From positions 1 through 33,273 of the forward strand of contig WLOB01000007.1 in the NCBI GenBank assembly GCA_009699505.1: a stretch of DNA of 33,273 nt, given 5' to 3'. Below are positions 474 to 14,019 of this stretch, piece by piece (position 1 is the first letter of the stretch; the number at the start of each line of letters is the position of its first letter). The translations under genes were made by a program, and so were the position numbers. The notes below the pieces were generated by a model, which was not told the origin of the DNA, searched no databases, and saw only the letters and a list, made by a program, of their open reading frames with translations. This DNA comes from Actinomycetota bacterium. Lineage in GTDB: Bacteria; Actinomycetota; Thermoleophilia; Solirubrobacterales; Solirubrobacteraceae.

Positions 474-1340
474 TCAGGCCGCGGTCTTCGCGGCCCGCTT
501 CGGCGCCTCGGCCTTCCCGCCGCCCGTCCCCTTGCCCTTGGCGCCCCGGGCCTTCGCCAGGCTCTCCTCGAGGGCGGCCATCAGGTCCTTCGGCGCCTTC
601 TGGGCCTGCGGCTCGGGTTCGGGCTCCGGGATCTCGACCTTGCCGCTCCTGCGCTTCTCGTCGATCAGGCGCAGCAGCCGGACGCGGTGGCAGTCGTCGT
701 AGCGCGACGGGCGGAACTCGTCGGTGAGCTCGCCGATCAGGGCGACCGCGTCGTCGACCTCCCGCTTCGAGGGCTTGCCCTTCGCGCCCTGGGGGATCGC
801 GTCGATCTCGTCCGGGGACCGCAGCTCGTCGGCGAAGCGCATCGTGGTCAGGGAGAGCAGGCCGTCCTGCTCGCGCAGCGCGACGAGGTACTCCTTCGCG
901 CGGAGGACGATGCGGCCGATCGCGACCTGGCCGGCGTTGCCCATGACGTCGACGAGCAGCCGGTAGGCGCGGACGGGGCCGGCGCCGTCGCCGGACGGCA
1001 GCAGCCAGTAGGGGTGGTCGAAGTAGACGGGGTCGATGTCCTGCAGGTCGACGAAGAGGTCGATGTCGACGGTGCGCGTCTTCTCGGGCGCGGCGGCGTC
1101 GAAGTCCTCGTCGGTGAGGACGATCATCTCGCCGTCGTCGGTCTCCCACCCCTTGGCGATGTCCTCCCAGTCGACCTCCTCCCCGTCCGTCGACGCGACG
1201 CGCCTGGTCTGCACGCGCTCGCCCGTGTCCTTGTGGACCTGGTGGAAGTGGACGTCCTGGTCGCGGACGGCCGAGACGAGCTGCACGGGGACGTTGACCA
1301 GGCCGAAGCTCAGCGAGCCGGTCCACAGGGAGCGCGCCAT
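474..1340 (-). CDS. ku: Ku protein (NHEJ), short paralog with basic C-terminal tail
   Basis: MARSLWTGSLSFGLVNVPVQLVSAVRDQDVHFHQVHKDTGERV start, typical bacterial Ku core, Lys/Ala-rich tail; adjacent to second Ku and LigD. Confidence 0.93.
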   Translation of the reverse strand: MARSLWTGSLSFGLVNVPVQLVSAVRDQDVHFHQVHKDTGERVQTRRVASTDGEEVDWEDIAKGWETDDGEMIVLTDEDFDAAAPEKTRTVDIDLFVDLQDIDPVYFDHPYWLLPSGDGAGPVRAYRLLVDVMGNAGQVAIGRIVLRAKEYLVALREQDGLLSLTTMRFADELRSPDEIDAIPQGAKGKPSKREVDDAVALIGELTDEFRPSRYDDCHRVRLLRLIDEKRRSGKVEIPEPEPEPQAQKAPKDLMAALEESLAKARGAKGKGTGGGKAEAPKRAAKTAA

Positions 1341-2542
1341 CAGGAGCCCGCCTTCTTCGTCGTGGTGGTCTTCCGCTTCGGCGCGGCCTTGCCGGACGAC
1401 GTCTTCGAGGAGGACGACCGCTTCGCGGAGGTGGCCTTCGACCCCGAGTTCGTCGCGTTCTTCGTCGACGAGGCCTTCGACCCGGAGCCCGAGGCCTTCG
1501 ATCCCGAGGACGCCTTCGTCGTCGACGAGGCCTTCGACCCGGAGGAGGCCTTCGTCGTGGTGGCCTTCGAGCCGGACCCCGACGCCTTGGAGCCGGAGGA
1601 GGCCTTCTTCGACGACGAGGCCTTCGATCCGGAGGAGGCCTTCTTCGACGACGAGGCCTTCGACCCCGACGCGGACGACGACGTCGAGGACGAGCCCTTC
1701 GTCCCCGACGACGCCTTCGCCGACGCGGAGTCCTTCGTCGCGGCCTTGCGCTCCGTGCTCGTCCGGCGCTTCGGCCTCCCGCCGGCGAGGCTCGCCTCGA
1801 GGGCGTCGGCGAGGTCGCCGCCCTCCTCGGGTCGCCGCTTGGCCTTCTTGGGCTTCAGCCCCTTGCGCTTGCGCTCGATGAGGTCCATCACCGCCTCGCG
1901 GTAGGTGTCCTCGTGCTCCTCGGGCTTCCAGTCGTCCTGGAGCATCTCGACGAGCTTGCCCGCCATCTTCACCTCGCGGTCGCCGGGCGTCCTGCGCAGG
2001 GACGGCACCTCGAGGTCGTCCTTGTCGACGAGCTCGTCGTCGAAGCGCATCGTCTGCAGGCCGAGCGCGCCGCCGAGCGGCCGGACGGCGACGAGGTTCT
2101 CCCGGGAGCGCAGGACGAAGCGCCCGATGCCGACCTTCTCGCTCTGCTCGAGGGCGGCGAGCAGGACGCGGTAGGCGTGGTCGCCGCCGTCGCGGGCGCC
2201 GACGAGGTACGGCTTGTCGTAGAAGACCGGGTCGATCTCCTCCGCGCGGACGAAGTGCTCGATCGCGACGACCTTCGGGTGGGTGCCCTCGGCGGCCGCG
2301 ATCTCCTCCTTCGTCAGGAGGATCTGCTTCCCGTCCTCGTCGTAGGCCTTCTCGATGTCGCCGTAGGCGATCTCCTCGCCCGACTCCGCCCCGACCCGCT
2401 GGTGCTCGATGCGCACGCCGTCGGACGCACGGACCTCGCGGAACCGCAGCGTGTGCGGCGAGGTGGCCGAGAACAGCTTCACCGGGATCGCGACGGATCC
2501 GAAGGTGATGGTGCCGTTCCAGAGCGAGCGGGCGGCGGTCAT
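1340..2542 (-). CDS. ku: Ku protein (NHEJ), long paralog with Ser/Lys-repeat C-terminal tail
   Basis: MTAARSLWNGTITFGSVAIPVKLFSATSPHTLRFREVRASDGVRIEHQRV is the bacterial Ku N-terminus; long SSSKKASSGSKAS repeats at C-terminus; 1-bp-overlap junction with the neighbouring Ku ORF. Confidence 0.93.
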   Translation of the reverse strand: MTAARSLWNGTITFGSVAIPVKLFSATSPHTLRFREVRASDGVRIEHQRVGAESGEEIAYGDIEKAYDEDGKQILLTKEEIAAAEGTHPKVVAIEHFVRAEEIDPVFYDKPYLVGARDGGDHAYRVLLAALEQSEKVGIGRFVLRSRENLVAVRPLGGALGLQTMRFDDELVDKDDLEVPSLRRTPGDREVKMAGKLVEMLQDDWKPEEHEDTYREAVMDLIERKRKGLKPKKAKRRPEEGGDLADALEASLAGGRPKRRTSTERKAATKDSASAKASSGTKGSSSTSSSASGSKASSSKKASSGSKASSSKKASSGSKASGSGSKATTTKASSGSKASSTTKASSGSKASGSGSKASSTKNATNSGSKATSAKRSSSSKTSSGKAAPKRKTTTTKKAGS

Positions 2543-2600
2543 GGGTCCCGACGACTACCCCGCGGAGCCCGCTCGAACCACCCCTGCACGGTGCCGCCCG

Positions 2601-5273
2601 TCAGAGGTGGAGCTCGGGCAGCCGCTGCTCGAGCTCCAGGAGCGGCGCGAACAGGTCGCCGCGCCGGCGCACGCGCCCGAGCGTCTCGTCCGCCAGGAAC
2701 ACCAGCGTCCCGGGGTCGTCCGAGCGCTCGCACGCCTCGACCTCGTCCCAGTCCACGGGGGTCGAGACGGACGGTCGCTCGCGGGCCCGCAGCGAGTAGA
2801 CGCCGATCGTGGTCTTCGCCTGATCGTTCTGGCTCCAGTCGATGAGGACCTTCCGGTGGCGCAGCTCCTTGGCCATCTTCGAGACGACGAGGTCGGGGAG
2901 GTGCTCCTCGAGGAACCGCGCGAGCCACCGGGCGAACGGCTTCGTCTCGTCGTAGGACGCGTCGTCGGCCAGCGGGGCGTACATCTGCAGGCCCTTGGAC
3001 CCCGAGGTCTTGCAGAACGCGCGGATCTCGAACCGGGCCAGCACGTCGCGGACCGCGAGCGCCACGCGGCAGCAGTCGACGATGGAGGCGCCGGGTCCCG
3101 GGTCCAGGTCGAAGACCAGCGCGCGGGGGCCCGAGACGCCGTGCGGCGCGTCCGGCGCGCCGAGCGACAGGGACGGGTGCAGCTCGATCGCCGCGAGGTT
3201 GGCCGCCCAGAGGAGCGTCGGCAGGTCGTCGAGCAGGACGAAGTCCACGACGCCCTCCTTGCGGCCGTGCGGGACGGGCGTCGTGCGGACCCAGTCGGGC
3301 CGGTGCCTGTCGGCGTGCTTCTGGAAGAACGCCTTCTCGTCGACGCCGTTGGGGTAGCGCTTCAGCGTCATCGGCCGGCCGCGCCAGTGGGGGAGGGCGA
3401 CGGGCGCCACCGCCGCGTAGTACCGCAGGACGTCGGCCTTGGTGAAGCCGCCGGGGTAGAGCGCCTTGTCGAGGTTCGAGAGCTTGAGCGTGCGCCCGTC
3501 GACCTCGATCTCGACGCTCTTGCCCGACGACGGGATGAGCTCCTCGGGCTCGACCTCCGGCTCGTCGGGCTCGGGGACGTCGGGGACCGCGGGCGGCTCG
3601 GGCTCGCGGACGACGGCCGCCTCGACGGGCGCGCCCTTCTCGGCCCGGCCGCCGAGCGCCGCGGCGAGGACGTCGTCGGGGACGTGGTGGGGGTCGTCCG
3701 CCGCCGGTCCCGCCGCGGAGGAGGCGGCCGCCGGGCCCTGCTTCGCCGTCGACGCGCCCTTCGCCGTCGACCCGCCGCCGGACGCCGGGGCGCCGCCCAC
3801 CGCGTCCGTCTCGTCCTCGCCGACCGCCGGTCCCGTCGTCGCCGGGGTCTCCCGCACCACGTCGTGCGCGTCCTTGTCGTCGCGCAGGCCCTGGAAGGAC
3901 CCGTGGCGCACGGAGCCGTCGGACGTCCACTCCGCGAAGCGCACCTCGACGACGAGCGACGGCGTGCAGAACCGGGCGCCCCTCGGCGGCTGCCGGCCCT
4001 CGTACGGCGAGGTCCTGCGCTCGAGCCGCTCGAGCTTCGCGGTCAAGATCTTCAGGGTCTCCTGATCGAAGCCCGTGCCGACGCCGCCGGCGTAGCGCAG
4101 CGCGCCGTCCGCGTCGTACACGCCGAGCTGCAGCGAGCCCAGGACGCCCGCGCGGCCGCCCTTGCCGGGGATCCAGCCGCCGACGACGAACTCCTGGCGC
4201 AGCTCGTGCTTCACCTTGAGCCACGCGTCGGACCGGCGTCCGGGGCGGTAGATCGCGTCGGTGCGCTTGGCGATCACGCCCTCGAGCCCCTGCTCGGCGG
4301 TGGCGGCGAGGAGGCCCTCGCCCTGCCCCACGTACGCGCCGGGGGTCTGCCAGTGGTCGCCGTCCAGGCCGAGCTCCTCGAGCGCGGCGCGACGCTCCGT
4401 CCACGGCCGGTCGACGAGCGGGTGGCCGTCGAGCCACAGCAGGTCGAAGACCATGAGCGTCACCGGCCGCTCCTGCGCGAGGCGCTTCACGTGGGCGCCG
4501 CGGGCGTGCATCCGGGACTGCAGGGCCTGGAAGCTCGGGCGCCCGTCGTCGTCGAACGCCACGACCTCGCCGTCGAGGATCGCCTCGTGCGAGGAGAGCT
4601 GCCGGTTCAGGGCGCGCAGCTCCGGATAGGCGCCGGTGATGTCGTTCCCCGCCCGGGAGAACAGCGAGAACCGCCCCGGCTGCGAGCGGACCATCGCCCG
4701 GACCCCGTCCCACTTGACCTCGAAGGCCCAGTCGTCGGGCCGCGGGGGCAGCGTGCCGGGCCTGGCGAGCATCGGCTCGATCGCGGCGGGCATCTCCTCG
4801 GCCGTCTCGTCGACCGGCGGATCCATCCGGTGGATCATCCAGTCCTTCGGGTCCCTGCCCGCGTGGAACAGCGCGTACCTCCCCGTCAGGCGCTCCCCGG
4901 AGAACACGGCGATGATCTCGCCCTCCCGCCACTTCTCGACCTCGAACGTCCCGGCGTCCCAGATCGTCATCTCGCCCGCGCCGTAGTTGCCCTCGGGGAT
5001 CGTCTCCTCGAAGTCGAGGTACTTCAGCGGGTGGTCCTCGGTGTGGACGGCCTTGCGGTTGTGCCTCGGGTCCGTCGGGAGGCCGTTGGGGATCGCGAAG
5101 CTCGCCAGCGCCCCATCGTGCTCCAGGCGCAGGTCCCAGTGCAGCCGGGTGGCGTGGTGCTCGTGGACGACGAACCGCGGGGCGTCGGCCGGCGCGACGT
5201 CCTCGTCGCCCGACGGCTCCGGGGTGTCGGCGAAGGAGCGCTTGCGGCGGTAGTCCCTCAGCGGCTCGGCCAT
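2601..5273 (-). CDS. ligD: Multifunctional NHEJ DNA ligase LigD (phosphoesterase-ligase-polymerase order)
   Basis: PE domain (RFVVHEHHATRLHWDLRLEHDGALASFAIPNG), ligase motif (FEVKWDGVRAM), POL domain (KLSNLDKALYPGGFTKADVLRYYAAVAPVALPHWRGRPMTLKRYPNG). ORF open to 5294; start at 5273 (MAEPLRDYRRKR) preferred. Confidence 0.93.
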   Translation of the reverse strand: MAEPLRDYRRKRSFADTPEPSGDEDVAPADAPRFVVHEHHATRLHWDLRLEHDGALASFAIPNGLPTDPRHNRKAVHTEDHPLKYLDFEETIPEGNYGAGEMTIWDAGTFEVEKWREGEIIAVFSGERLTGRYALFHAGRDPKDWMIHRMDPPVDETAEEMPAAIEPMLARPGTLPPRPDDWAFEVKWDGVRAMVRSQPGRFSLFSRAGNDITGAYPELRALNRQLSSHEAILDGEVVAFDDDGRPSFQALQSRMHARGAHVKRLAQERPVTLMVFDLLWLDGHPLVDRPWTERRAALEELGLDGDHWQTPGAYVGQGEGLLAATAEQGLEGVIAKRTDAIYRPGRRSDAWLKVKHELRQEFVVGGWIPGKGGRAGVLGSLQLGVYDADGALRYAGGVGTGFDQETLKILTAKLERLERRTSPYEGRQPPRGARFCTPSLVVEVRFAEWTSDGSVRHGSFQGLRDDKDAHDVVRETPATTGPAVGEDETDAVGGAPASGGGSTAKGASTAKQGPAAASSAAGPAADDPHHVPDDVLAAALGGRAEKGAPVEAAVVREPEPPAVPDVPEPDEPEVEPEELIPSSGKSVEIEVDGRTLKLSNLDKALYPGGFTKADVLRYYAAVAPVALPHWRGRPMTLKRYPNGVDEKAFFQKHADRHRPDWVRTTPVPHGRKEGVVDFVLLDDLPTLLWAANLAAIELHPSLSLGAPDAPHGVSGPRALVFDLDPGPGASIVDCCRVALAVRDVLARFEIRAFCKTSGSKGLQMYAPLADDASYDETKPFARWLARFLEEHLPDLVVSKMAKELRHRKVLIDWSQNDQAKTTIGVYSLRARERPSVSTPVDWDEVEACERSDDPGTLVFLADETLGRVRRRGDLFAPLLELEQRLPELHL

Positions 5274-5350
5274 GTCGCTCGGTTCTACCCGCACGGCCGG
5301 GCCCCTGCACGTCGCGGGCGCGTACGGGGGAGGCGACCCCGCGTGCCAGC

Positions 5351-8122: not shown

Positions 8123-9337
8123 TCACTGGCTGTTCTGGGTCTTGTGCGACTGCTGGTGCGAGTCGCGCTGTTCGGACTGCTGCTCGATGTGCTGTTCCAG
8201 GAGGCGTCCCGCCGCGCGGAGGTCGCTCTTGCCGACGTGCACGTACGTCGCGTCGAGGCTGTCGCGGCCGTGACCGACGATCACCCGGCGCACCTGGTCG
8301 GAGACACCGGCCCGCATCAGCCACGTGTCGTAGCCGTGCCGGAACTCGTGCGGCTCGTACCGCGGCATCCCGGCTGCGTCCCACGCCGCGTAGGCGTGCT
8401 CGCGCAGCCACTCCGGCGACACGTGGCCGCGCTGGTTGCCGGCGTACCTGGGCGGCAGCAGCAGCCCGGTACGCACCGACGTGCGGAGCATGTGCGCGCG
8501 GATCTCGTCGCGGAGCGGCTTGATCAGCGGCGCCCACCGGTCGGCGTGGTCGGACTTCGTGCCCGGCACGTGGATGAGGCCGCGGTCGAAGTCGACGTCC
8601 TCGACCGTGATCCACAGGCCCTCCATCAGCCGGGCGCCGGCGAACGCGAACAGCGCCCATGCCACCCGGTCCGCCTCCGGCACTGCCTGCAGCAGCCGGA
8701 CGGCCAGCGTCACCTTCGGCGCGCGCTTGCTCGACGAGCTGGGCAGCTTCGGCAGCTTCAGCCGGTCGGTGCGCGGGCTCGCCGGGATGATGTCGGTGGA
8801 GTCCGCGTACGCCAGGAGCAGACGCATCGTGTTGATGACGTTCCGCACCCTCGACGCCGACCGTCCGGCGGCCATCAGGTCGCCTGCCAGTTCGGCCACG
8901 TTGGCTTCCGTGATCGTGCGGACCTCTCGCTCGCGCAGGAGCGGCCAGCCGTTGCGGCCGATCTCCTCGATCCCGCGGATCGACTGCACGGAGTAGTTGA
9001 CGCGCCGCCGGTTCAGGATGCGGCCGTCGCGGGCGTCTCTCGCGAACCGCTCTACGAGGTCGTCCATCGTGAACCCCTTCATGCCGGGGCTCAGGGTGGC
9101 GCCGGCACGCCGACGGCGGTCCATCTCGCTCTTCCACTCCTCGGCGTGCGACCGCTCGCGGAACGTCTTGGCGACGGTGCCGCCCTGGCCGTCGCGTGCC
9201 TCGGGGTCCCAAGCGCGCGCGACGTACCGCAGACGGTCCTTGCAGACGCAGCGCTTGCCTTCGCGGGCGTTGCACCGGTCGATGTGCCGGGCCTTGACGC
9301 CGGCGACCTTCGTCGCCAGCTCGTAGGTGTCGGGCAC
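8123..9337 (-). CDS. int: Phage tyrosine integrase
   Basis: Catalytic pattern AGARLMEGL..., HEFRHGYDTWLMRAG, VGHGRDSLDATYVHV; Cys-containing N-terminus; adjacent to tRNA-3' remnant. Confidence 0.93.
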   Translation of the reverse strand: MPDTYELATKVAGVKARHIDRCNAREGKRCVCKDRLRYVARAWDPEARDGQGGTVAKTFRERSHAEEWKSEMDRRRRAGATLSPGMKGFTMDDLVERFARDARDGRILNRRRVNYSVQSIRGIEEIGRNGWPLLREREVRTITEANVAELAGDLMAAGRSASRVRNVINTMRLLLAYADSTDIIPASPRTDRLKLPKLPSSSSKRAPKVTLAVRLLQAVPEADRVAWALFAFAGARLMEGLWITVEDVDFDRGLIHVPGTKSDHADRWAPLIKPLRDEIRAHMLRTSVRTGLLLPPRYAGNQRGHVSPEWLREHAYAAWDAAGMPRYEPHEFRHGYDTWLMRAGVSDQVRRVIVGHGRDSLDATYVHVGKSDLRAAGRLLEQHIEQQSEQRDSHQQSHKTQNSQ

Positions 9338-9567: not shown

Positions 9568-10377
9568 TCAGATCGAGACGACGGGGCCGCTGCGGGCGAA
9601 GATCGGGGCGAGCACTTCGGTCGGGCTGATCGACCGGAGGTAGAGCTGCGTGACGTCGAGGCGGGCGTGGCCGAGCTGCCGCTGGACGGCGAGCAGGTCG
9701 ATGCCCTCGCGCCAGAGCTCGACGGCGTGGGCGTGGCGGAGCTGGTGCGGGGCGATCCGCTTCCGGATGCCGGCCTCCTTCGCCTTGCGCTTGAGGTCGC
9801 GGCGCACGTCGGTGTGCGACCAGACGCGGGTGCCGGACGTCGGGCCCGTAATGACGCAGAAGACAGGGCCGGGCTCGAGCGACTGGCGGTACTTCAGCCA
9901 CGGCTGGACGCGGCTCCACCCCCACGGGTCCATCATCGAGACGCGGCGCTTGCCGCCCTTGCCGGACCGGACGACGATCGACCCGTCGTCGGCGTGGAGA
10001 TCCGACTCGTTCAGGGCGAGCGCCTCGCTGATGCGGAGACCGGTGCGCCAGAGCACCACGATGAGGGCGTGGAGGCGGAGACCGGTCGGACGGTCGCCGC
10101 AGGCGAGGAGGAGTCGGGAGAGCTCGTCGACGGACGGCGGGTCGGGCGGGTACGTCCGACCCTTCGACTTGGGGGTGCGGCCCTTGTGGTAGCCGGGCAG
10201 CGTCGCGAGCGGACGCTTGTAGCCGCGAGCGTCGAGGAGGTTGTGGTCCTCGATGTCCTGCACCAGGCGCAGGACGCCGGCGGGCGGGGCGGTCTTAGAG
10301 ACGGCGAGCTTGCCGTCGGTGTCGTGGTGGTCGCGGTCCGGGCCGTCGGCGACGGCGCTAGCGTTGTTGGTGATCAC
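9568..10377 (-). CDS. Second tyrosine recombinase (XerC/D-like)
   Basis: WRTGLRISEALALNESDL, GKGGKRRVSMM, IAPHQLRHAHAVELWREGIDLLAVQRQLGHARLDVTQLYLR: Arg, Lys, HxLR, GH and Tyr positions all present. Confidence 0.9.
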   Translation of the reverse strand: MITNNASAVADGPDRDHHDTDGKLAVSKTAPPAGVLRLVQDIEDHNLLDARGYKRPLATLPGYHKGRTPKSKGRTYPPDPPSVDELSRLLLACGDRPTGLRLHALIVVLWRTGLRISEALALNESDLHADDGSIVVRSGKGGKRRVSMMDPWGWSRVQPWLKYRQSLEPGPVFCVITGPTSGTRVWSHTDVRRDLKRKAKEAGIRKRIAPHQLRHAHAVELWREGIDLLAVQRQLGHARLDVTQLYLRSISPTEVLAPIFARSGPVVSI

Positions 10378-10451: not shown

Positions 10452-10937
10452 CTAGAACGGGATGTCGTCGTCGTTCGGGGGCTCCGGGGTCGGCGCGGAC
10501 GCCGCCTGCCCGGTCGGCTGCGGCGCCGGGGCGCCGAAGTCGCCGCCGGTGTTGCCCCAGCCGGAGGACGTCGGGTTCAGCAGGCCGCCGCCCTGGCTCT
10601 GGTTCTCGTCGCGGCCGCCGATGAACTGCACCTCCTGGGCGACGATCTCCACGGCCTCGCGCTTGTTGCCGTTGTTGTCCTGCCACTCGCGCCAGCGGAG
10701 CCGGCCGGACACGGCGACCTGGCGGCCCTTCGCGAGGTACTTCGCCGAGGCGTCGGCGCTGTTGCCGAAGACGGTGACGTTGAAGAAGTTGGGGGCGTCG
10801 GCCCACTGACCGGACTGGTCCTTTCGGCGCTCGTTGACGGCGACGCGGAGGGAGCAGACGGAGCCGCCGGACGGGAGTCCGCGGAGCTCGGGGTCGCGGG
10901 TCAGGTTCCCGACGATCGTGACGCTGTTGATGGGCAT
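10452..10937 (-). CDS. ssb: Single-stranded DNA-binding protein
   Basis: MPINSVTIVGNLTRDPELRGLPSGGSVCSLRVAVNERRKDQSGQWADAPNFFNVTVFGNSADASAKYLAKGRQVAVSGRLRWREW; acidic tail ending DDDIPF. Confidence 0.97.
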   Translation of the reverse strand: MPINSVTIVGNLTRDPELRGLPSGGSVCSLRVAVNERRKDQSGQWADAPNFFNVTVFGNSADASAKYLAKGRQVAVSGRLRWREWQDNNGNKREAVEIVAQEVQFIGGRDENQSQGGGLLNPTSSGWGNTGGDFGAPAPQPTGQAASAPTPEPPNDDDIPF

Positions 10938-10939
10938 GT

Positions 10940-11299
10940 TCAGTTGTCCTTGGCTGTGGTGATCGGGTGGAGGTGGATGAGCCGGCGGTCGTGGTCGGCG
11001 ACGCGCTCGGCGAGCTCGCCGAGCATCTGCTCGACGTTCGTGGGTTCGGGTCTGGCGGCCCAGCCGTGCAGAAGGAACCAGTCGGGGACGCCGGTGACCT
11101 CGGCGACGCGCGCTGCCCACACGGGGATGTCGTGCGGGGCGACGACCACCTGGCCGGTCTCGACGCGCTTGACCATGGTCGCCACGGGCCATCCCGGGTA
11201 GCGCTCGGCGAGCGCCTGGCCGAGGTCGGACTGGCGAGTGAAGCCGCCCCACGTTCGGGCCACGCGGAGCCGCCGGCCGAAGTCGGTGACCTCAGGCAT
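10940..11299 (-). CDS. HTH (XRE-like) DNA-binding protein
   Basis: FGRRLRVARTWGGFTRQSDLGQALAERYPGWPVATMVKRVETGQVVV...WAARVAEVTGVPDWFLLHGW. Confidence 0.6.
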   Translation of the reverse strand: MPEVTDFGRRLRVARTWGGFTRQSDLGQALAERYPGWPVATMVKRVETGQVVVAPHDIPVWAARVAEVTGVPDWFLLHGWAARPEPTNVEQMLGELAERVADHDRRLIHLHPITTAKDN

Positions 11300-11332: not shown

Positions 11333-12037
11333 TCACGCGACCAGCTCCATGACGTCCTGGCGAGCCGGCCGGGCCCACCGGCGGGCCGGCTGCAGCGCGT
11401 CGATGCGAGCGGCCATCGCGCCCGGTGAGGTGGCGGCCTTGCCGCGCGACGGGATGGCGGCGTGGTTGCGCGCGACGTTGGTCGAGTCGGCCGAGAAGAA
11501 CGGGTAGGGCCCGTCGCTGAGCGCCAGGCCGCGGAGCATGTGGAGCCGGGTGCGCGGAACGCCGCGTTCGTCGCAGGCGACGTCCATCGTCTCGGCCATC
11601 CGGCGCGTCCACGGGCCGGTCCCGAGCTTGGCGTACATCGCCGAGGACCCGATGCAGACCAGCGGCCACGTCGCCACGAGGCGCGCGAGGCGGTCGAGCG
11701 TCTCGTGCATGTGCCAGACCGGGGCGCCGCGGCGACCGTGCGGCCACTCGTCGATGAGCTGGTCGTTGGCGTCCTCGTCGCCGTCGATGACGTCGGGGAT
11801 GACCGCCCACGTCGTCGGGACGTCGAGCCAGCGGGCGGACCACTCGTAGTAGGCCGGCCAGTCGGTGCGCTGCCCGCGGGTCCACGCACCGAACGCGCCG
11901 TTGTCGAGCATCACGCTCTGGCCGATCTCGTGGCAGACGTCGACGTCGCGCGGGTCGGCGAAGCTGACGCAGAAGCACCGACCCGCAAGCTCGTAGAGCG
12001 CCGAGCGCGGAGTGATCGGGGTGCCGTGGTAGTGCAT
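11333..12037 (-). CDS. DpdA-like (TGT-superfamily) 7-deazaguanine DNA transglycosylase candidate
   Basis: SVMLDNGAFGAW resembles the TGT base-recognition motif (T/L)DSGGF; AVIPDVIDGDEDANDQLIDEWP, PVWHMHE, CIGSSAMYAKLGTGPW, LHMLRGLALSDGPYPFFSADSTNVARN; ATGA-coupled to a YhhQ-like transporter. Confidence 0.7.
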   Translation of the reverse strand: MHYHGTPITPRSALYELAGRCFCVSFADPRDVDVCHEIGQSVMLDNGAFGAWTRGQRTDWPAYYEWSARWLDVPTTWAVIPDVIDGDEDANDQLIDEWPHGRRGAPVWHMHETLDRLARLVATWPLVCIGSSAMYAKLGTGPWTRRMAETMDVACDERGVPRTRLHMLRGLALSDGPYPFFSADSTNVARNHAAIPSRGKAATSPGAMAARIDALQPARRWARPARQDVMELVA

Positions 12038-12570
12038 CACCGGTCCCTCCACGCGAGCCCGACCGCGGCGGAGACCGCGGCCTTCACGACGACCTGGGCG
12101 ACGACGACGGTCCACAGGAACTCCCAGGAGACGATCCCGGTGGTCAGCGGCGACAGGCCGACGACGGCGAACAGGATCGAGTCGAGGGTGCCGCCGAGGA
12201 CGCCGGAGACGGCGACCCGCCGGCCGACGCTGCCGTGCAGTCGGGTGAAGACCTCGGTGTCGAGCGTCTCGGCGAGCGCGAACGACAGCGCCGACGCGAC
12301 GGTGACCCAGAGCAGGTCGTCGTAGGCGAAGCTGACCGCGACGTTGGCGAGCAGCGCGGCCCCGACGGCGGCGTAGGCCGCGGCGCGGCCGAGCCGAAGC
12401 TGCACGAGGTCGCGGAGCACGAACGTGGCTGCGATGAACCACGTCCCCCAGGTGACGACCCAGTGCTGGCCGAGGGCGTCGAACGACCACGGCGTCTGGG
12501 TCGCCGTGACGATGTTGGCGGTGACGATCGCGGCGACGTAGACCGCCGCGATCGCGAGTCCGATCCTCAT
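12037..12570 (-). CDS. VUT/YhhQ (QPTR) family queuosine-precursor transporter
   Basis: MRIGLAIAAVYVAAIVTANIVTAT...WGTWFIAATFVLRDLVQLRLGRAAAY...SALSFALAETLDTEVFTRLH...RVAVSGVLGGTLDSILF. Confidence 0.85.
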   Translation of the reverse strand: MRIGLAIAAVYVAAIVTANIVTATQTPWSFDALGQHWVVTWGTWFIAATFVLRDLVQLRLGRAAAYAAVGAALLANVAVSFAYDDLLWVTVASALSFALAETLDTEVFTRLHGSVGRRVAVSGVLGGTLDSILFAVVGLSPLTTGIVSWEFLWTVVVAQVVVKAAVSAAVGLAWRDR

Positions 12571-12604: not shown

Positions 12605-13546
12605 TCATGCCGCCACCTCTGCGGTCGTGTTGAACAGGGGTGCGTCGGCGACGATCCGGGCCCGTGCCATGGCGACGTACTCGGGGTTGATCTCGGTCCC
12701 GATGAACGACCTGCCGCGGCGCAGCGCGACGACCCCCGTGGTGCCGGCGCCGGCGAACGGATCAAGGACGGTGTCGCCCTCGTCGCTGCCCGCGAGGACG
12801 CATCGGTCGGCGAGGGCCGGGGGCATGCACGCGAAGTGCGCCCCGGCGAACGGCTTGGGCGAGATCGTCCAGACGTCGCGGGCGTTGCGCTTCCCGCCGA
12901 CGTCGTTCCACGCCTCCGTCTGGCCGCGCCCGCCGAGGCTCACGCGCTCCGGGCGGTTGAACCCGTTGCCGCTGCCCGACGTGCTCACGGCGTCCTCCGC
13001 GATGGCCTCGCGGTCGTAGTGGTACCGAGCCGACTTGGACAGCAGGAAGACGTGCTCGTGGGACGACGTCGGCCTGTCTGTTACAGGGGATGGCATCGGG
13101 TTCGGCTTCGCCCAGATGATGTCCGAGCGGAGGAACCACCCGTCCGCGCGGAGGGCGAAGGCCAGCATCCACGGGATGCCGAGCATGTCCTTCTGCTTGA
13201 CCGAGCCGCCAGGCCGGGCGCCGGGCACGACGCCGCGGTCGCGGAGCGCCGGGCGGTCCATGCCTTTCGTCCCGGGCGTCCGCGTCGTGCCGTCGTTCGT
13301 GGCGTAGCTGTCGCCGATGTTCAGCCACAGGGTGCCGTCGTCGGCGAGGACCCGGCGCACCGCGCGGAACACGTCCACGATCTCCGCGGCGTACTCCTCG
13401 GGCGTCGGCTCCAGCCCGATCTGCCCGTCGTGGCCGTAGTCCCGGAGGCCGAAGTAGGGCGGGCTGGTCACGCACGTCCGGACGCTCGAAACCTCGATGT
13501 CGGCGAGGCGCTCCCGAGCGTCGCCGGAGAGGATCTGCCACGTCAT
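12605..13546 (-). CDS. Site-specific DNA methyltransferase (N4-C/N6-A type)
   Basis: TSPPYFGLRDYGHDGQIGLEPTPEEYAAEIVDVFRAVRRVLADDGTLWLNIGDSY, later DPFAGAGTTGVVALRRGRSFIGTEINPEYVAMARARI. Confidence 0.95.
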   Translation of the reverse strand: MTWQILSGDARERLADIEVSSVRTCVTSPPYFGLRDYGHDGQIGLEPTPEEYAAEIVDVFRAVRRVLADDGTLWLNIGDSYATNDGTTRTPGTKGMDRPALRDRGVVPGARPGGSVKQKDMLGIPWMLAFALRADGWFLRSDIIWAKPNPMPSPVTDRPTSSHEHVFLLSKSARYHYDREAIAEDAVSTSGSGNGFNRPERVSLGGRGQTEAWNDVGGKRNARDVWTISPKPFAGAHFACMPPALADRCVLAGSDEGDTVLDPFAGAGTTGVVALRRGRSFIGTEINPEYVAMARARIVADAPLFNTTAEVAA

Positions 13547-14019
13547 GCGCTGTCTCGCTTCTGACCAGAAGTAGGGGCTCCGACGAGCTCGACGAAGCGG
13601 CCGCCGGTGAGGCGCTCGACGACATCGTCGACGTCCTTCGGTCGCCACAGGTACGACTCGATCGTCGGCGCGGATCGTTCGTCGATGCCGAGGTGGCCGC
13701 ACGCGACGCCGATGATGTCGGCGAGCGCCTGGCCCATCTGGTCGAAGCGGTCGAGCCACTCCTGCTGGCCGGGTCGCAGGCGCCCGGAGTTGGTCTTGAG
13801 CTCGACGGCGAGCATCTCAACGCCGCGGAGCATGATCAGGTCGGGGAATCCGGCGGTGTCGCCGACGACGGCCTGCGGCCGGCCGGTGCGGCGGCCGGGC
13901 CGGTTGTCGGGCATGTGCGCGATGGTCCAGCCGCCGAGGGTGGCGAGCTGCACGACCTGCATCTGCCAGCCGGCCTCGAGCAGGTGGCCCTTGTTGTTGC
14001 GGATGCGGCTGACGGTCAT
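13543..14019 (-). CDS. VRR-NUC domain nuclease
   Basis: GDTAGFPDLIMLRGVEMLAVELKTNSGRLRPGQQEWLDRFDQMGQALADIIG: PD-(D/E)xK-like motif. Confidence 0.85.
   Translation of the reverse strand: MTVSRIRNNKGHLLEAGWQMQVVQLATLGGWTIAHMPDNRPGRRTGRPQAVVGDTAGFPDLIMLRGVEMLAVELKTNSGRLRPGQQEWLDRFDQMGQALADIIGVACGHLGIDERSAPTIESYLWRPKDVDDVVERLTGGRFVELVGAPTSGQKRDSA

Follow-up and report, generated by a model that had tools for sequence, protein, structure and literature searches.

A predicted two-gene cassette for salvage of 7-deazaguanine bases and their insertion into DNA in a temperate contractile-tailed phage

Does a temperate phage modify its own DNA with bases that it scavenges and does not make? The question is raised by two small adjoining genes in the window, the whole 33,273-nucleotide stretch of Actinomycetota DNA that was analyzed. 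A sequence-only reading had described them as genes for a DpdA-like transglycosylase and a YhhQ/QPTR-type membrane protein, coupled through an ATGA overlap and carried by a temperate phage, with no FolE, QueD, QueE or QueC visible in the window, and had proposed that imported 7-deazaguanine precursors replace some of the G residues in phage DNA. The features of the locus are presented in Table 1. Both open reading frames were confirmed, on the minus strand, while the coupling was found to take another form, the stop codon of the Vut gene and the start codon of dpdA overlapping as TGATG. Purine-rich ribosome sites precede both starts (GAGAGG 5' of Vut and GGAGGG 5' of dpdA). The setting is as had been described: together with the two integrases, the SSB and the methyltransferase (for which the real start may be internal), the element carries a VRR nuclease, a RecT-like protein and a contractile-tail set (sheath, tape measure, baseplate), and is a prophage of a temperate contractile-tailed phage. 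Likewise, no Pfam domain match to QueD, QueE, QueC or FolE was obtained among the prophage ORFs scanned, and no riboswitch was found by Rfam search. The two tyrosine integrase genes differ from one another and adjoin at the left end of the prophage. On its left flank the prophage is adjoined by a bacterial end-joining set, consisting of two Ku-like genes and a large LigD-like ligase.

Table 1. Positions of features in the window, in host chromosomes and in other dpdA loci
Feature	Sequence	Position	Strand	Remarks
Vut_1/YhhQ-type membrane protein gene	window	12037..12570	(-)	177 aa; ATG at 12570, TGA at 12039-12037
DpdA-like gene	window	11333..12037	(-)	234 aa; ATG at 12037-12035, stop ends at 11333
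TGATG stop/start overlap, Vut to dpdA	window	12035..12039	(-)	one base common to both; read from sequence
N6/N4 DNA methyltransferase gene	window	12605..13759	(-)	PF01555 E=4.5e-48; directly upstream of Vut, same orientation
Single-strand DNA-binding protein (SSB) gene	window	10452..11252	(-)	PF00436 E=3.4e-35; prophage context
Tyrosine integrase gene	window	8123-9337	(-)	PF00589; prophage context
Tyrosine integrase gene	window	9568-10377	(-)	PF00589; prophage context
Two Ku-like genes and LigD-like ligase gene	window	474-5294		translations read by eye
Chromosomal Vut-queC site	G043 C1	269693-270914
Chromosomal Vut-queC site	G047 C52	66861-68097
Chromosomal Vut-queC site	G056 C2	1146482-1147703
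Chromosomal Vut-queC site	G065 C1	43712-44937
Chromosomal Vut-queC site	G066 C16	31591-32821
Chromosomal Vut-queC site	G066 C2	62746-63962
Nucleoside 2-deoxyribosyltransferase/DUF4406-like ORF	L001	1658-2293		by eye; near dpdA
Nucleoside 2-deoxyribosyltransferase/DUF4406-like ORF	L011	6627-7058		by eye; near dpdA
QueD gene paired with dpdA	L056	3702-4723		Caulobacter phage DMCA
Two dpdA paralogues	L010	4547-5236 and 5998-6675		one viral contig

The product of the downstream gene matched PHROG 887 (phage queuine tRNA-ribosyltransferase) with E=6e-52, and 107 phage records with a relative were identified by tblastn. Identity to the DpdA of Pantoea phage MED16 was about 35-40% (38.5% over the aligned part, E=5e-33) and to that of Salmonella phage 7-11 was 30-33% (E=8e-20). 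When a profile of the window DpdA clade, from which 7-11, MED16 and Iggy were left out, was compared by hhalign with the DpdA of phages carrying a FolE-QueD-QueE-QueC cluster, a match was obtained with prob 99 and E=7e-18. Taken together, the PHROG match, the homology to MED16 and 7-11 and the profile match bear out the earlier DpdA assignment. Pfam offered no family for the protein and no PF01702 match, a sequence-profile search of the PDB gave no match, and hhalign against a profile of the host-lineage TGT was not significant. Because the PDB, Pfam and host-TGT comparisons were negative, kinship to tRNA TGT is drawn from the DpdA family and from published work; membership in the DpdA family is good while the tie to tRNA TGT is indirect. 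The marks of a bacterial tRNA TGT were not seen: PF01702 gave no match, and the zinc motif CxCxxC, C-terminal in TGT, was found in none of 113 DpdA homologues versus all host-lineage TGTs. Membership in DpdA2 (Vibrio phage nt-1 type) was also rejected, the Foldseek match being weak (E=0.04) and the nt-1 protein much longer and of a different subfamily.

The motifs SVMLDNGAFGAW and SADSTNVARN, with the TGT-type catalytic Asp residues D45 and D184, are both present in the window DpdA, as had been read from this gene. A third catalytic Asp, D82, was invariant in the 113 homologues, as were H109 and G130, and D45, H166 and D184 were kept in 112 of them. The AlphaFold (AF2) model is a (beta-alpha)8 barrel (pLDDT 86) in which D45 ends barrel strand 3 and D184 ends strand 8, a placement which we take to be the general base and nucleophile arrangement of TGT. 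From motif and strand position, the two residues would be equivalent to D102 and D280 of the Z. mobilis enzyme. The structure comparison with DpdA/TGT that had been suggested gave a divided result. Foldseek matched the model to 29 phage proteins at E<=1e-3, many of them named queuine tRNA-ribosyltransferase, whereas only generic TIM barrels were returned from the PDB (best E=0.065), with no TGT among the best 50.

With respect to the membrane protein, the window Vut scored 35 bits against Pfam Vut_1 (PF02592), above the cut-off of 27.2, and its AF2 model contains six long helices (pLDDT 83). The score against TIGR00697 (queuosine precursor transporter) was 32.3 bits (8e-8), below the cut-off of 50.95. 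Relatives in the phage Vut clade do match TIGR00697 (best 2.4e-11), and the clade profile matched E. coli YhhQ (E=2.5e-7, prob 93). E. coli YhhQ (QPTR, COG1738; PMC5372724) resembles the window protein in Pfam family and in its six helices, and has in common with the clade the conserved regions ASxxxxxxxxxxDxxVFxxL and SxxxGxxxDS, while the window protein is divergent and shorter (177 vs 221 aa). Identity to other phage Vuts was only 20-29%; tblastn of the window Vut in phages produced no match, and profiles and sister Vut proteins were needed for detection. Foldseek matches to the PDB were weak and S-component-like only and were set aside as evidence. The Vut_1 score, the six helices and the clade match uphold the YhhQ/QPTR assignment, and the protein is likely, though not certain, to be an importer of 7-deazaguanine as predicted from its sequence.

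In an iterated profile search, Vut touched or overlapped dpdA in 32 of 40 viral loci, and three of the eight loci without Vut were cut off at a contig end. Most loci have the order dpdA-Vut, whereas Vut-dpdA is found in the window, in loci L003-L005 and in phages PEAT2 and Bhagsy; Pam5, RHph_N3_2, phiLM21, AB3P2 and Aoka also carry the pair. RHph_N3_2 is a phage of Rhizobium and Bhagsy one of M. smegmatis, a species whose genus reportedly has none of the Q genes (PMC6884629). Adjacent Vut genes were seen in about one quarter of the dpdA loci of bacterial genomes. When presence of Vut was mapped on a maximum-likelihood tree of 113 DpdA proteins, 14 changes of the label were counted, at least 11 of them forced by well-supported branches. 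Counting against a salvage cassette, no Vut was seen in loci L001 and L063, whose DpdA proteins are the closest to that of the window. Given the strength of the PHROG 887 match and the presence of the pair in dozens of loci that are unrelated, dpdA-Vut is a recurrent cassette and not a chance arrangement. In two loci without Vut (L001 and L011), ORFs resembling nucleoside 2-deoxyribosyltransferase/DUF4406 were observed near dpdA, and these could be another base-supply gene.

The window genome is a 75%-complete assembly and was compared with seven further genomes of its genus, six of which are 92-96% complete. While tRNA TGT is present throughout the genus, QueC, QueF, QueA, QueG, QueH, QueT and any other Vut were absent from the genomes compared; the host search for queC that the sequence-only reading had called for was therefore negative. 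Apparent QueC matches in the host were rejected as short hits to the ATP-loop only, at 20-30 bits versus more than 190 bits for real QueC. The dpdA cassette was absent from 40 relatives of the window genome, as expected of an accessory element. Across 49 host genomes, several of them MAGs, QueC was lacking in five of the 17 hosts with the Vut-linked form vs none of the 32 hosts without Vut (Fisher one-sided p=0.003 with kinship ignored, 0.001 with the window added). The five QueC-less hosts all belong to the alphaproteobacteria, and most of them to the Rhizobiales. A general necessity does not follow, since QueC is present in 12 of the 17 Vut-linked hosts and further Vut copies occur in four of the five that lack QueC. 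The host test supports salvage but falls short of proof.

These data suggest that the phage modifies its own DNA with scavenged bases, and we consider it likely that the two genes form a minimal salvage-and-insert DNA modification cassette. The Vut/QPTR protein would supply a non-producing cell with a 7-deazaguanine base from outside (preQ0, preQ1 or queuine), and the coupled DpdA would swap selected guanines in phage DNA for the imported base by the TGT mechanism, in which D184 would attack the nucleoside C1', D45 would serve as general base and the incoming base would displace the enzyme. We infer the substrate, the direction of transport and DNA as the acceptor; the families, the catalytic residues, the coupling, the conserved pair and the host lineage without synthesis genes are as described above. 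As a prediction, the salvage-only logic is well supported by the conserved pairing, by host genomics and by relatives with measured 7-deazaguanine in their DNA. Virion DNA of MED16 contains dADG by LC-MS/MS, with 0.13% of G modified, and is cleaved by enzymes whose sites include G (PMC8306585); dADG was likewise measured in phage 7-11, at 0.02% of G (PMC6884629). The DpdA proteins of these two phages belong to the same family and length class as that of the window and have its invariant catalytic motifs, and the phages are also without biosynthesis genes. They differ from the window in having no Vut beside dpdA and in their hosts: preQ0 is made by Salmonella itself and probably by the Pantoea host, and QueC is missing from the host lineage of the window. 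Phages with the FolE-QueD-QueE-QueC cluster (9g, CAjan, Iggy, R7M), whose DpdA is homologous to that of the window in the profile comparison, make the base, while the window cassette comprises import and insertion only. A YhhQ-type preQ0 transporter is also encoded by EC151 and PSTCR7, which have synthesis clusters; preQ0 transporters of phages had already been described within complete synthesis clusters (PMC8310023). No DNA modification was found in the DpdA-only mycobacteriophage Orion, whose host has no Q genes (PMC6884629); this result counts against function of the cassette, yet it is what the salvage model would predict if Orion is without a transporter.

The benefit of modification would most likely be protection from nucleases or restriction, and together with the neighboring methyltransferase the cassette may provide layered anti-restriction, as had been proposed. 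Modification in the measured relatives is at trace level and left MED16 DNA unprotected, so that anti-restriction in general may be too wide a reading of the benefit. A tentative alternative, which we think possible but doubtful, is that 7-deazaguanine marks only a few sites, for packaging, replication or regulation or against one host nuclease. The closest measured relatives, with only 0.02-0.13% of G modified and with MED16 DNA cut at G-containing sites, would fit such sparse marking (PMC8306585, PMC6884629), but modification in other DpdA phages amounts to about 30% of G and goes with resistance to restriction (PMC6884629), and low levels may mean a shortage of precursor that a transporter relieves.

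The host genus (G000-G007) has tRNA TGT with no Q synthesis gene and no known precursor transporter (QPTR, QueT), and it must either use some other queuine importer or have a TGT that does something else. In a survey of gut Actinomycetota, TGT without synthesis genes, often without a known transporter, was read as queuine salvage (PMC11130926). Because TGT is present with no preQ0 pathway and no QueA, QueG or QueH, queuine is the base expected in the salvage economy of this host. We nevertheless regard it as unlikely that the cassette imports queuine and inserts it intact to give deoxyqueuosine in phage DNA, a nucleoside for which the phages measured to date were examined with a negative result (PMC6884629). 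Lysogenic conversion, in which the prophage transporter feeds queuine to the host tRNA TGT while DpdA is incidental or acts on RNA, would suit a lineage that should need queuine, given its lack of QueA, QueG and QueH, that has no known precursor importer and that belongs to a phylum whose gut members are mostly predicted to salvage queuine (PMC11130926). This we hold to be quite improbable, as Vut is coupled to dpdA and not to TGT in dozens of phages including lytic ones, DpdA has no TGT zinc motif and the 40 relatives live without the cassette.

The gene neighborhoods of Vut also bear on its substrate in the salvage-and-insert reading. DpdA or Que genes adjoin Vut in most of the characterized Vut phages examined, the exceptions being mEp021, in which no DpdA was found within 2.5 kb of Vut, and one fragment; phage YhhQ is also located inside QueE/QueD/FolE clusters. 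Short Vut genes were also found in five host genomes within about 320 bp of chromosomal queC (Table 1); they suggest a chromosomal sister of the phage transporter and independently point to a place for Vut genes of this kind in 7-deazaguanine metabolism. The least likely reading, that Vut is a transporter for something else (a vitamin or other purine) and adjoins dpdA through moron packing in the early region, could appeal to the breadth of the Vut_1 family, the TIGR00697 score below the equivalog cut-off and mEp021, but is opposed by repeated independent pairing in both gene orders, by the YhhQ genes within synthesis clusters, by the adjacency to queC and by the clade match to E. coli YhhQ.

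Phages that have dpdA but lack synthesis genes made up the largest group in a 2019 survey, in which it was considered hard to predict whether their DNA is modified and in which YhhQ was reported to correlate with no group of phages (PMC6884629). Taken singly, DpdA and phage YhhQ are already known; the novelty lies in a salvage-only pair that is conserved as a unit, of which no description was found in the literature examined, with incomplete coverage. The conserved pair and the exclusive occurrence of the Vut-linked form in the QueC-less hosts sampled lead to a direct prediction, namely dependence on environmental 7-deazaguanine. Should this hold, how well phage DNA withstands host nucleases would depend on the supply of bases in the surrounding community, and the two genes together would offer a compact tool with which modified bases could be written into DNA. 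Two further arrangements of this DpdA type were observed among the viral loci: in Caulobacter phage DMCA it is paired with QueD (6-carboxytetrahydropterin synthase), and in another viral contig (L010) two dpdA paralogues lie near each other.
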